Shown: positions 44,363-47,177 of the stretch, piece by piece
Layout of the letters: every line of letters starts with the position of its first letter
Position numbering within the stretch: position 1 is the first letter of the stretch
NCBI GenBank assembly: GCA_022826245.1
Contig: JAJDVG010000008.1
Location: 124,001 to 188,000 of the forward strand
Length of the DNA stretch: 64,000 bases
From: Gammaproteobacteria bacterium
GTDB taxonomy: Bacteria; Pseudomonadota; Gammaproteobacteria; Steroidobacterales; Rariloculaceae
Direction: 5' to 3'
Notes under the pieces: model-generated
Seen by the model: only the letters and a program-made list of their open reading frames with translations
What the model was told of the DNA's origin: nothing
The model's database searches: none
Position numbers and translations under genes: made by a program

Positions 44363-44402
44363 GGGAACCGGAACCAGGATCGGGTCCTGGCATCCGGTTC
44401 CC
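44363..44402 (-). terminator. GGAACCGGAA-type hairpin A, after the first two-helix gene
   Basis: GGGAACCGGA (44363-44372) pairs with TCCGGTTCCC (44393-44402), and an inner CCAGGA/TCCTGG stem closes a five-base loop. On the minus strand CCCTTTC follows, a weak T-run. It lies between the 65-residue membrane protein gene and the exporter. It could be an attenuating terminator or an RNA-stabilising end. Confidence 0.65.
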
Positions 44403-44448
44403 AAAGGGTGTATGCGCGTCAAGTCAATGGCGGCGGGAATGCCCGGCG

Positions 44449-44646
44449 CTATTCCTCCTTGCGATCCTTCGAGTGACGACGGGCCACGATCGTGCTGTAG
44501 CGCATGAGCGTGCCGACCATGCCGCCAAAGCCGATGGCCAACATCAGTTGCTCGAACAGATCGAAGTCGGCCGCCTGTACCATGATCGTCAGTGACCACA
44601 CCGTGAACAGAATCGGGTACATCGCATTCCAATCGATTTTTTTCAT
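44449..44646 (-). CDS. Small two-helix membrane protein, candidate immunity protein
   Basis: Predicted 65-residue protein. Start ATG 44646 follows GGAGAG. Two hydrophobic helices ('YPILFTVWSLTIMVQAADF' and 'LFEQLMLAIGFGGMVGTLM') and a basic tail (ARRHSKDRK) are visible. It lies 57 bases after precursor 1. Small membrane proteins encoded directly after bacteriocin precursors are usually self-immunity factors; here that is inferred from position only. Weakly similar to the other two. Confidence 0.65.
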   Translation of the reverse strand: MKKIDWNAMYPILFTVWSLTIMVQAADFDLFEQLMLAIGFGGMVGTLMRYSTIVARRHSKDRKEE

Positions 44647-44703
44647 GTTTCTCTCCGTTGACTCAACAAGACCTGAACGCGCGGTACAGGCGCGCAAAAG
44701 CGA

Positions 44704-44991
44704 TCAGCAGCCGAAGAAATAGGTCACGGCCCCATCCCAGGCGTACACGGCAGCGTAGGCCGCGCCCCCGAGAAGTGCCCCGCCGACCATGCCCGGCAGC
44801 GCGCCGCCGCCTCCGGCCAAAGACCCGGCCATACCACCGGTAACCGCCCCCGCGAACGCCGCACCGCCGAAGTCGGACCAACTCCACGAAGCACCGCTCA
44901 CCAACAGCAGCTCTTCGTTGGAAAGCTCGCGCATCGCTCCGGGAGCCGGCAGCTCCATCGCAACCGCCGCCGCACCGACCGAAGGGCTCAT
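44704..44991 (-). CDS. Precursor peptide 1 (GG-type leader, Gly/Ala-rich core)
   Basis: Predicted 95 residues from ATG 44991. Leader 'MRELSNEELLLVSGA' has the double-glycine-type pattern with Ser-Gly-Ala at the cut. The core starts 'SWSWSDFGG', continues with 'AGAVTGGMAGSLAGG'-like helix-helix Gly motifs and ends 'TYFFGC'. Precursor 3 has the same layout. The homologous start codon of precursor 3 (ATG) is ATT here at 45004-45006, five codons upstream and directly after GGAGGTGG. Translation may therefore begin at ATT, giving 100 residues. Substrate of the C39 exporter by inference. Confidence 0.75.
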   Translation of the reverse strand: MSPSVGAAAVAMELPAPGAMRELSNEELLLVSGASWSWSDFGGAAFAGAVTGGMAGSLAGGGGALPGMVGGALLGGAAYAAVYAWDGAVTYFFGC

Positions 44992-45168
44992 TTCAACCGA
45001 ATAAATATTCCACCTCCAATGTGTTTTTCAAATCCGTCGTTTGTCGTTCCGTAGTTCGTCGCCGCATGCGACGTCGCGCACCATACCGCGATGCGACCGC
45101 GAACCCCACACGCGAATCGAGGCTTTTTTCATCGAATCGCCACACGCAGGCCGCAGGGACTCTCGCGG

Positions 45169-45357
45169 CTACGCCCGCTTGTACGCACTCAGCGCCAGCA
45201 TGAGCCCGATGGTGTTGTCGCGCGTCTCGCGGAAAAACGCGAGCGAGAGTTCGGGCACCGGGCACTGGAGGACCGGTTCTTCGTTCCCGGCTGCGACGAG
45301 TTCGGCCCGAAGCTTGCGACCGCCGCCTGCCGGGCCGACTTCAAGCACCAGCCGATC
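45169..45357 (-). pseudogene. 3' remnant of the Cys-type beta-lactamase-fold gene
   Basis: This stretch encodes, in one frame to a TAG stop, the last roughly 62 residues of the protein at 47392-48738: 'DRLVLEVGPAGGGRKLRAEL', 'PVLQCPVPELSLAFFRETRD' and 'NTIGLMLALSAYKRA'. It has no start and is joined abruptly at its 5' side (near 45358) to a copy of the exporter leader. The 3'-end-then-precursor order is the same as for the intact gene and precursor 3, so it records a tandem duplication. The rest of 44992-45620 holds no other gene. Confidence 0.85.
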
Positions 45358-45361
45358 CCCT

Positions 45362-45393
45362 GTTGCATCCTTGCAGTGGATTCAGGTTTCACG
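45362..45393. repeat. Direct repeat, copy 2 (copy 1 at 44315-44346)
   Basis: Same 32-base element as upstream of the exporter (29 of 32 identical). Here it leads straight into the hydrolase remnant rather than the exporter start. Sequence identity ends at CAACAG on the minus strand. Confidence 0.75.
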
Positions 45394-45531
45394 ATGGCCG
45401 CTTCATGCATGAACACGAGGTACGGGCGGACGGCGGATCGTTATGCGATCCAGGCGATACGGGCGATACCCGCCAGACGTCAACACCGGGGATACTGAAC
45501 ACGCCGATCCGCGGGACTGCGCCGGAGGACG

Positions 45532-45569
45532 GGAACCGGAACGGCAAGGACATCCCGCATTCCGGTTCC
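45532..45569 (-). terminator. GGAACCGGAA-type hairpin B, after the second two-helix gene
   Basis: GGAACCGGAA (45532-45541) pairs perfectly with TTCCGGTTCC (45560-45569) around an 18-base loop. It stands 51 bases past the stop of the 60-residue membrane protein. There is no T-run, so processing or RNA stability is as likely as termination. Confidence 0.6.
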
Positions 45570-45620: not shown

Positions 45621-45803
45621 CTACTGGTCTCCCGAGCGTTTCCGCGAGACGAGGGCGCGCGTCAAGAACCCGGCGAGCAGCCCGACCGCGACGGCCAGCA
45701 CGACAGTTTCCGCCAACGCCAGTTCGTTCGACAACGTAACCGCAGCCACCGTGACACCCACGGCCACGCAGACCGGAACCAACCACTTGCTGCGTGTCTT
45801 CAT
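45621..45803 (-). CDS. Small two-helix membrane protein, candidate immunity protein
   Basis: Predicted 60-residue protein with helices 'WLVPVCVAVGVTVAAVTLS' and 'AETVVLAVAVGLLAGFLTRA' and a basic tail. Its ATG overlaps the stop of precursor 2 by one base (TGATG), so the pair is translationally coupled. Clearly similar to the 69-residue protein at 46617-46826 ('VVETVILAIAIGLLAGSLAR'). Immunity role inferred from coupling and size. Confidence 0.65.
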   Translation of the reverse strand: MKTRSKWLVPVCVAVGVTVAAVTLSNELALAETVVLAVAVGLLAGFLTRALVSRKRSGDQ

Positions 45804-46096
45804 CACGGAGCGTTCTTCCATGCATCCAGGTCGGCGCCGGAGGAAGGGTCGGTCTGCGGGCGCCGGTCGTGGAGCGGGCCCGTAATGAACGCGTAAGCAT
45901 AGACCGGCACCCCCCCGGGAAACATGCCGCCCGGTCGCCCGCTCGCGACTCCCGGAAAACCGAACGCGTAGCCGCTCCAGGCGCCGCTCACGAGTAACAG
46001 CTCGGTATCCGAGAGTTCTCGCATCGTACCCGCAGCCGTCTGTTGCGCGGCGCTGACCCGACGGCTGGCCGTCGAAGTGTTGTCGATCGAATGCAC
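45803..46096 (-). CDS. Precursor peptide 2 (GG-type leader)
   Basis: Predicted 97 residues from GTG 46096, preceded by AAGGAGGTGGACC, the same ribosome site as precursor 3. Leader 'MRELSDTELLLVSGA' matches the other two. The core differs: 'WSGYAFGFPGVASGRPGG' then a polar tail ending 'DLDAWKNAP', without the Gly-zipper helix or terminal Cys. It may be a second peptide type handled by the same exporter, or a degenerating copy. Coupled to a two-helix protein gene. Confidence 0.7.
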   Translation of the reverse strand: MHSIDNTSTASRRVSAAQQTAAGTMRELSDTELLLVSGAWSGYAFGFPGVASGRPGGMFPGGVPVYAYAFITGPLHDRRPQTDPSSGADLDAWKNAP

Positions 46097-46228
46097 GGTC
46101 CACCTCCTTGCATGTTTCCATCAGTTCCATTGCTTGCCGTAGGATGCGACCCGAAACAGCCTACCGGTGGGGATCGAACATTCCAAGATCGGAATCGGCT
46201 TGTTTCGCGGCGATTTGAATGTGAACTA

Positions 46229-46453
46229 AACCTGGTGTTGTCCGGGCTGTTGCTCGTTCTCCGCCAACCGCAGGATTCGCTCGGCGGAACCGGGCAAAAC
46301 AGCATCTTAGCGTTCGAACAGTGCCGGCGGAGGGAGCGGCCCCTTGAACGAGGCCGCTTGTACGTACGCTACTCGCGTGTCGTCAGGAACACCTTCGAGC
46401 ATCGCGCTCTGCAGCATTTCGCCGACTTCATCTTTGGCGCGATCTTTGAGTGC
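46229..46453 (-). pseudogene. Broken DUF2335-like gene fragment
   Basis: One frame reads 'ALKDRAKDEVGEML', then 'SFKGPLPPPALFER', a TAA stop at 46307-46309, then 'DAVLPGSAERILRLAENEQQ'. This is the conserved start of DUF2335 membrane proteins ('GPLPPPxxLxxY...PGxAERIL'), with the expected Tyr codon mutated to TAA. No start is near and a second stop follows before any membrane helix. It fills most of the 520-base gap between precursor 2 and the third two-helix gene. Confidence 0.65.
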
Positions 46454-46520
46454 CGACTCGGGCGGAGGGGGTGTTCGTGTGCTCTTGCGTTTCGTCCGCT
46501 TCGGTGGTTGCGCGGAGAAA

Positions 46521-46564
46521 ACGGGAGCCGGAACGAGAACCTGATCGTGCGTTCCGGCTCCCGT
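46521..46564 (-). terminator. GGAGCCGGAA-type hairpin C, after the third two-helix gene
   Basis: ACGGGAGCCGGAAC (46521-46534) pairs perfectly over 14 bases with GTTCCGGCTCCCGT (46551-46564). On the minus strand TTTTCT follows, so this copy is a credible rho-independent terminator. The core matches hairpins A and B and it holds the same position after a two-helix gene. Confidence 0.75.
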
Positions 46565-46616
46565 AGCGTCAACACGGGATTCGATGCCAGAGATACGGCG
46601 ACTCGCCCGCCTGGAT

Positions 46617-46826
46617 TCAGTCCTCCGATCGGCTGTGCGCAATGGAAAAGCGCGCCAGCGACCCGGCGAGCAATCCGATTGCGATCGCTAAAATCACAGT
46701 CTCGACAACCGTCGTTTCTGTCGCCATCGAGATGGCGGCAACTGTGCAACCAACGCTGAAGCAAACCAGGTAAAACCACTTTCTCTTACCTGGCTGATTC
46801 CACTGGATCTTGTCTGCTTTCTTCAT
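46617..46826 (-). CDS. Small two-helix membrane protein, candidate immunity protein
   Basis: Predicted 69-residue protein with a basic N terminus and helices 'WFYLVCFSVGCTVAAISMA' and 'VVETVILAIAIGLLAGSLAR'. Start ATG 46826 follows AGGAAAA at 10-base spacing. It is a homologue of the 60-residue protein at 45621-45803 and lies 60 bases after precursor 3. Immunity is inferred from context. Confidence 0.65.
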   Translation of the reverse strand: MKKADKIQWNQPGKRKWFYLVCFSVGCTVAAISMATETTVVETVILAIAIGLLAGSLARFSIAHSRSED

Positions 46827-46886
46827 TTCGTGATTTTCCTGGCGTCGAATTTCAAAGAGAAGCTCGGGGCCGTCGACGGTCTTTGC

Positions 46887-47177
46887 TCAGCAAGTCCACC
46901 AGCTCCAGATCTGGCTGCCGATGTAGGTAAAACCGCCTCCGATGGCGCCGCCGATCAAGCCGACGCCCGCGCCATGCAAGCCACCGAGATACAGCCCGGT
47001 CGCCCCCCCGCCGAGCGCCCCTGCAAATACCGAACCGCCGAAGTCGGTCCAACTCCACTCACCGCCGCTCACGAGCAGCAGCTCCGCAGCGGAAAGTTCG
47101 CGCATCGCGCCGGTAGCCGGCAGTTCGATGGCGACCGCCGATGCACTGACCGAAGGGCTCATTTCAACCGAGTACAT
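46887..47177 (-). CDS. Precursor peptide 3 (GG leader, Gly-zipper core)
   Basis: Predicted 96 residues. Leader 'MRELSAAELLLVSGG' is a canonical double-glycine leader end; the core begins 'EWSWTDFGGSVFAG', contains repeated GxxxG/GGG helix motifs and ends 'IWSWWTC'. Precursor 1 shares WSW(S/T)DFGG and the C-terminal Cys. ATG 47177 sits three bases after GGAGGTGG. Gly-zipper helices of this length are typical of pore-forming class IIb-like bacteriocins, although the leader here is long (about 40 residues). Confidence 0.78.
   Translation of the reverse strand: MYSVEMSPSVSASAVAIELPATGAMRELSAAELLLVSGGEWSWTDFGGSVFAGALGGGATGLYLGGLHGAGVGLIGGAIGGGFTYIGSQIWSWWTC

Follow-up and report, generated by a model that had tools for sequence, protein, structure and literature searches.

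Three probable class II microcin-like bacteriocin cassettes in tandem, presumably served by one exporter, in a Rariloculaceae genome

Class II microcins are described, in excerpts of two papers, as five-part systems comprising a precursor, an immunity protein, a peptidase-containing ATP-binding cassette transporter (PCAT), a membrane fusion protein, and TolC (PMC9746304; PMC10233263). According to the same excerpts, their cores are highly variable (PMC9746304), and their immunity proteins range from 51 to 216 amino acids (aa) (PMC10233263). One documented immunity type is a small inner-membrane protein encoded beside the toxin (passages of PMC10233263 and PMC5380434). In a further passage of PMC5380434, killing by the Caulobacter Cdz system is contact-dependent, and Cdz-like proteins are delimited by one or two glycine zippers free of proline or charge. 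Here, we analyzed a 64,000-nucleotide stretch (the window) of the gammaproteobacterial assembly GCA_022826245.1 (contig JAJDVG010000008.1, positions 124,001 to 188,000), in which three gene units stand in tandem beside an exporter gene. These units probably represent three class II microcin-like (glycine-zipper) bacteriocin cassettes served by that one exporter.

All three units were found on the minus strand where the sequence-only reading had placed them, each running from a precursor through a two-helix protein to a hairpin: 47177-46521 (unit 3), 46096-45532 (unit 2), and 45006-44363 (unit 1). Their parts are as follows.

46887..47177, minus strand: unit 3 precursor, 96 aa; leader end LLLVSGG; 57-aa core, glycine every four residues
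46617..46826, minus strand: unit 3 two-helix protein, a probable immunity protein, 69 aa
46521..46564, minus strand: unit 3 hairpin, perfect 15-bp stem followed immediately by a T run; terminator-like
45803..46096, minus strand: unit 2 precursor, 97 aa, GTG start; leader end LLLVSGA; atypical polar core with proline
45621..45803, minus strand: unit 2 two-helix protein, 60 aa; precursor stop and two-helix start overlap (TGATG)
45532..45569, minus strand: unit 2 hairpin, without a T run
44704..45006, minus strand: unit 1 precursor, 100 aa counted from the ATT at the aligned start; leader end LLLVSGA; glycine-rich 61-aa core
44449..44646, minus strand: unit 1 two-helix protein, 65 aa
44363..44402, minus strand: unit 1 hairpin, imperfect copy with a short T run

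We searched 58 genomes, namely that of the window plus 57 relatives, and, for the two-helix profile and one neighboring enzyme, 396 genomes of the order. Precursors and two-helix genes occurred one-to-one among the 58 genomes, with 3/3 in the window's genome, 2/2 in its congener G001, and 1/1 in its congener G002, weak matches being put down to chance. The two-helix profile found the same three genomes among the 396, plus one weak partial match. Aligning the cassettes, as had been proposed, resulted in precursors homologous across units and two-helix genes likewise. The leader end was nearly invariant (MRELS..ELLLVSG[GA]), with LLLVSG[GA] in 6/6 precursors, and the cores were variable. A GGAGGTGGA ribosome site precedes all precursors, and a block of about 100 nucleotides (nt) upstream is common to the cassettes and to the region preceding the G002 exporter gene. 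At the aligned start of the unit 1 precursor there is no ATG, which corrects the earlier reading; an ATT (45004-45006, minus strand) stands where homologs have ATG or GTG, the next ATG lies at 44991, and the ATT is possibly a rare start codon or a mutation weakening the gene.

Two of the three cores are glycine-rich zippers. The unit 3 core, which fits the Cdz-like description of an uninterrupted zipper, carries eight glycines at four-residue steps, a run equaled in length in 0.05% of 10,000 shuffles; the unit 1 core has zippers and a proline within it, and the longest zipper run of the unit 2 core is four steps, with prolines. The cores of units 3 and 1 end in SQIWSWWTC and AVTYFFGC, respectively. 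With 96-100 aa and VSGG/VSGA leader ends, the precursors fit the Cdz-like size (60-151 aa) and the G[G/A/S] leader criterion. Weak Pfam bacteriocin matches were obtained for the unit 3 and unit 1 precursors: unit 3 scored E 9e-5 and 22.9 bits against Pfam Bacteriocin_IIc, under the 27.1 cut-off, and E 0.02 and 15 bits against the microcin V (MccV) model, with a cut-off of 27 (matches overall, E 0.02-0.04). No curated microcin or bacteriocin model (Pfam Bacteriocin_IIc, MccV) was matched above its cut-off by the precursors, such a match being a supporting and not a defining criterion for class II microcins. The NCBIfam search returned no family above cut-off for precursors or two-helix proteins.

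The two genes of the presumed export machinery lie on either side of the array.

42086..44308, minus strand: PCAT with C39 peptidase and ABC exporter parts (PF03412 E 2e-33, PF00664, PF00005); triad Cys25-His98-Asp114
48753..50210, plus strand: HlyD-type membrane fusion protein (PF13437 E 1e-15, TIGR01843); open reading frame (ORF) as listed, true start probably further in

The PCAT triad C25/H98/D114 is intact and invariant in four genomes, and its spacing (73 and 16) equals that of CvaB, whose triad is given as Cys32-His105-Asp121 in an excerpt of PMC9746304. Eight PF02321 matches above cut-off elsewhere in the genome represent outer-membrane-factor genes, the predicted TolC-like partners. 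In the sequence-only reading, the repeated unit fitted a toxin family whose members each have an immunity protein of their own. That the peptides are exported and have small membrane proteins as dedicated partners is well supported by the double-glycine (GG) or GA leaders, the adjacent C39 exporter and HlyD protein, the one-to-one counts, and the glycine-zipper cores, and also by one overlapping stop/start and a partner size (60-69 aa, toxin-adjacent, helical) within the published immunity range; a simple triplication did not hold. From its size, membrane nature, adjacency, unit 2 overlap, and one-to-one counts, we infer that the two-helix protein is best read as the immunity protein of its own peptide. 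Its N-terminus is positively charged, its C-terminus is basic, and the short stretch between them is acidic; this pattern suggests that both termini are cytoplasmic. The AlphaFold model of the unit 3 protein, of low confidence (mean pLDDT 63.8, pTM 0.32), places helices at 12-35 and 38-68.

Coding constraint was estimated from nonsynonymous (dN) and synonymous (dS) divergence. Unit 1 and the G002 cassette share 34/39 leader, 37/59 core, and 49/65 two-helix residues, with dN of 0.09, 0.24, and 0.15, respectively, dS of 0.45-0.76, and dN/dS of about 0.15, 0.5, and 0.2. Units 1 and 3 share 31/38, 27/56, and 22/59. Because dN was below dS in every part of both comparisons, precursors and two-helix proteins alike are encoded by genuine genes under constraint. 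Core dN clearly exceeded leader dN in 5/7 pairs computed, the remaining two being near-identical copies.

The hairpin is specific to the cassettes. In the 3.6-Mb genome, GGARCCGGAA-N8-26-TTCCGGYTCC matches at exactly two sites, both in cassettes (reversed-pattern control, 0), and a genome-wide repeat was rejected on that ground; the third hairpin, an imperfect copy, escapes the exact pattern. A hairpin lies 3' of all six cassettes (window, G001, G002), the alignment retains its arms, and the gap from the two-helix stop, read from coordinates, is about 40-52 nt in four distinct cassettes. In the six-hairpin alignment, where two copies are near-identical to another copy, one stem pair shows A-U, G-C, and G-U states, two more pairs changed on both sides in one sequence each, and several pairs are disrupted in one or two members of the alignment. 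Only unit 3, its copy in G001, and the cassette of G002 have a T run behind the hairpin; unit 1 has a short one and unit 2 none. On the simplest reading, the hairpin would be a terminator decayed in some copies; alternatively, it may have an RNA role other than termination. No hairpin matched Rfam at the gathering threshold in the window. Sigma-70 promoter and terminator scans gave matches not above shuffles, and the hairpins were not reported as terminators under the scan's loop limit of 8. A stand-alone regulatory motif, CCGATTC-N2-GTNTGG, was dropped (10 window matches against 7.4 expected, not significant); its three sites at the cassettes stand only on the alignment of upstream regions.

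The whole-unit repetition noted earlier is real as to the three units, and the array itself is recombinational, its parts differing in age. The order along the minus strand is the beta-lactamase-like gene (ending at 47392), unit 3, the remnant of the DUF2335 gene, unit 2, the two junction scars, unit 1, the PCAT gene, and the acyl-carrier-like gene; the HlyD gene is divergent (plus strand, ending at 50210), and a second beta-lactamase-like gene lies beyond it (51895-50204, minus strand). The elements between the units are:

46250..46503, minus strand: DUF2335 gene remnant, truncated, with an in-frame TAA; blastn match to G002
45360..45393, minus strand: junction scar, a 34-bp copy of exporter-upstream DNA (repeat family D7; second copy 44313-44346)
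45167..45357, minus strand: junction scar, a 191-bp copy of the beta-lactamase-like gene 3' end (repeat family D2; 89% to 47390-47580)

The scars between units 2 and 1 imply that a hydrolase-cassette-exporter segment was added beside another. Identity to G001, measured in 250-base windows, was 75-89% in HlyD, 88-96% in most of the hydrolase, and 97-100% from 47667 to 45418. Additionally, the first 750 bases from 44346 (44346-43597, the C39 part of the PCAT) are 96-99% identical, and the sequence beyond is 83-89% identical. This mosaic implies recent sharing of cassettes 3 and 2 and of the leader-reading domain, with unit 1 as an extra, and it suggests that the C39 domain was exchanged together with the cassettes. 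Judging by these joints, the array evidently grew through recombination. In G002, the DUF2335 gene is intact between the cassette and the exporter (L041 9361-9831, plus strand; PF10097 E 2e-17); in the window and G001, only its first part is present, with partial matches of E 3e-6 (window, with the TAA) and E 2e-8 (G001). A derivation of the two-helix protein by shortening of the DUF2335 membrane hairpin was rejected, as the profile comparison gave only 20 aligned columns and 18% probability.

Several observations weigh against the bacteriocin-and-immunity reading. Two-helix protein 3 is nearer to two-helix protein 2 (27/59, 46%) than to two-helix protein 1 (22/59, 37%), and core 3 is nearer to core 1 (27/56, 48%) than to core 2 (14/53, 26%); strict cognate pairing or co-divergence is weakened by this discordance. 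The unit 2 core is polar, with 40% G/A/V/I/L and four positive and four negative residues. The unit 1 helices are weakly hydrophobic, with peaks of 1.43 against 1.9-2.3 in units 2 and 3, a difference that also corrects the earlier description of the small proteins. The two-helix proteins show no match to an immunity family, and their strongest hits, themselves weak, are phage holins (PHROG, units 2 and 3; E 0.027, 0.0022, 0.0099). Finally, among the 80 named PCAT loci retained of 491 confirmed stretches, a regular expression found GG-type ORFs at 54 (61 ORFs; reversed-sequence control, 0), and most GG precursors near these related PCATs lacked a small membrane partner. The scan for partners also missed 2/3 cassettes in L040/L041; because of these misses and its strict hydrophobicity threshold, its negatives mean little. 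On the supporting side, unrelated glycine-rich precursors outside the genus, at L067, L075, and L098 beside relatives of this PCAT, each have a small membrane protein of an unrelated family no more than 90 nt downstream.

The remaining genes of the locus are listed below.

47392..48951, minus strand: beta-lactamase-fold protein 1, CxxK for SxxK (PF00144 E 2e-45); ORF as listed, start probably near 48740 by alignment
50204..51895, minus strand: beta-lactamase-fold protein 2, also CxxK (PF00144 E 3e-36)
41780..42046, minus strand: acyl-carrier-like protein (PF00550 E 1e-11), directly 3' of the exporter gene

The CxxK beta-lactamase-fold enzymes beside the exporter are an unexpected extra. GC[VI][TA]KL replaces the catalytic-serine SxxK of relatives with solved structures in 8/8 sequences from four genomes (window, L040, L041, L054). 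They flank the exporter in 4/4 genomes, and enzyme 1 occurs in 4/396 genomes of the order (E 1e-40), every one with this PCAT. Both the window and G001 have the acyl-carrier-like gene 3' of the exporter; the contig of G002 stops short of that place, and tblastn did not show the gene in G005. PCAT orthologs (E < 1e-150) were found in 5/58 genomes. The G005 locus (L015/L054), from another genus, has the PCAT, HlyD, and both CxxK enzymes; no recognizable precursor (GG precursors were sought by regular expressions) or two-helix gene was found there. A second exporter on the window's contig (G000:C30:39322-41379, L002) also matches in its C39 part, with 32% identity, and no GG-type ORF lies within 1.5 kb of it. 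Two further two-helix matches were treated as chance: that in G025 (E 5e-4; L020) is antisense to another open frame, and that in G354 (E 9e-4; L126) lies inside a 348-aa open frame; no GG-type ORF was found at either locus. Weak precursor matches in nine other genomes (E 0.002-0.01), mostly pieces of long frames, were left out of the counts. The window comes from a relative of the genus Rariloculus, which the NCBI taxonomy assigns to Ca. Rariloculales and which is probably host-associated. Our literature search on this lineage returned no description of such a locus and no paper for the name 'Rariloculus'.

The flanking enzymes raise the question of whether the peptides are enzymatically modified before export, for instance acylated or ligated by the CxxK enzymes and the carrier protein. 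Their constant position, the restriction of enzyme 1 to genomes with this PCAT, and the carrier gene 3' of the PCAT in the window and G001 favor this; yet the G005 locus keeps both enzymes with no recognized precursor, beta-lactamase-fold enzymes have numerous other roles, and none of the genes scanned was recognized as encoding a modification enzyme of a known peptide class, so that we hold such modification rather unlikely. The peptides might also be secreted glycine-zipper proteins acting in adhesion, biofilm, or signaling, with the two-helix protein as an export or anchoring accessory. GG peptides are not always bacteriocins, GG proteins are reported to be required for cyanobacterial biofilm (in a passage of PMC4997328), the gonococcal Naps are bacteriocin-like with undetectable antimicrobial activity (in the excerpted part of PMC11798529), and many GG precursors near related PCATs have no membrane partner. 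However, antagonistic pairs typically show rapid change in the core and a separate partner for every precursor, and a single exporter would need a single accessory, not three diverged ones; we regard this function as unlikely.

The holin matches invite a further reading, in which the two-helix protein is not an immunity protein and instead acts like a holin, as a release or membrane factor produced alongside each peptide. Besides the PHROG matches, unit 1 matched Pfam Phage_holin_2 (E 0.05), and the gonococcal bacteriocin-like island encodes the holin-like NapH (same excerpt of PMC11798529). Nevertheless, matches this weak are expected from any two-helix protein, export is already provided by the PCAT and HlyD, and a shared release factor would not need one diverged copy per precursor, which makes a release role quite improbable. 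Lastly, the three-unit array could be chimeric, with two strains of one metagenome bin joined during assembly, given that the genome of the window comprises 62 contigs, that metagenome bins are its nearest named relatives, and that the cassette block is mosaic relative to G001. The junction, however, fuses exporter-upstream DNA to the interior of the hydrolase gene with little shared sequence at the joint, unlike a repeat-induced join, and a two-unit array occurs independently in G001; a chimera is thus very unlikely.

Under the preferred reading of three microcin-like cassettes, the C39 domain of the adjacent PCAT would cut each precursor after its GG/GA leader, and the core would leave through the PCAT, HlyD, and a TolC-like channel whose gene lies elsewhere. 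In related competitors, the core, which is neutral to slightly anionic, would insert into the inner membrane and permeabilize it; the two-helix protein of 60-69 aa, set in the producer's inner membrane with its ends inside and a short acidic periplasmic loop, would block its own peptide. Each self-contained cassette would comprise the shared upstream block, precursor, immunity gene, and hairpin (a terminator in the best copies). Being self-contained, cassettes could be gained or lost by recombination beside a constant exporter, hence one, two, or three per species, and they apparently spread between species as plug-in units. A bolder combination is improbable: a plug-in toxin/immunity/terminator array swapped with the C39 domain, whose peptides would be finished by a cysteine-nucleophile beta-lactamase-fold pair moving acyl or peptidyl groups from the carrier protein, would form an unprecedented class of modified microcins.

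The preferred reading would extend microcin-like weapons to the order Ca. Rariloculales. Since three congeners carry one, two, or three cassettes next to a single exporter, the gain of a new putative toxin-immunity pair is directly readable from its scars. With three peptides and three partners, the discordance between cores and two-helix proteins makes immunity specificity directly testable, and the CxxK pair, if catalytic, would be an unusual enzyme type for a bacteriocin locus.

Counterparts of all five class II microcin parts are found in the locus and genome, those for immunity and TolC partnering being predicted. Like microcin V (CvaC/Cvi/CvaB/CvaA/TolC), the locus has GG/GA precursors with a neutral or anionic core, an adjacent small membrane partner, a membrane fusion protein, and a C39 PCAT with equal triad spacing. 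Unlike microcin V, it has three tandem self-contained cassettes with their own hairpins beside the exporter, matches the MccV model insignificantly, and has an immunity function that is predicted. As far as the excerpt of PMC5380434 goes, Cdz (CdzC/CdzD/CdzI) shares the small GG-leader proteins, the extended GxxxG zippers, the adjoining type I exporter, and a small membrane immunity protein, and some Cdz-like loci carry up to three toxins. Cores 1 and 3, however, end in hydrophobic or aromatic residues and Cys instead of the charged or polar Cdz tail, and for lack of that tail the cassettes were not classed as Cdz; moreover, they have one small membrane protein per precursor, whereas Cdz has one per two-protein operon. 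Class IIb two-peptide bacteriocins, in the same excerpt, likewise have GxxxG-rich cores, GG leaders, and dedicated small membrane immunity, with two adjacent peptides and one immunity gene, whereas each precursor here has its own partner and hairpin. The Neisseria nap island similarly combines several GG peptides, a C39 peptidase, and small membrane proteins; unlike the cassette peptides, the Naps are described in the excerpted source as cationic and probably phase-variable. Class II microcin-like bacteriocin systems are already known, and what this locus offers is a well-documented case of cassette turnover in one genus.

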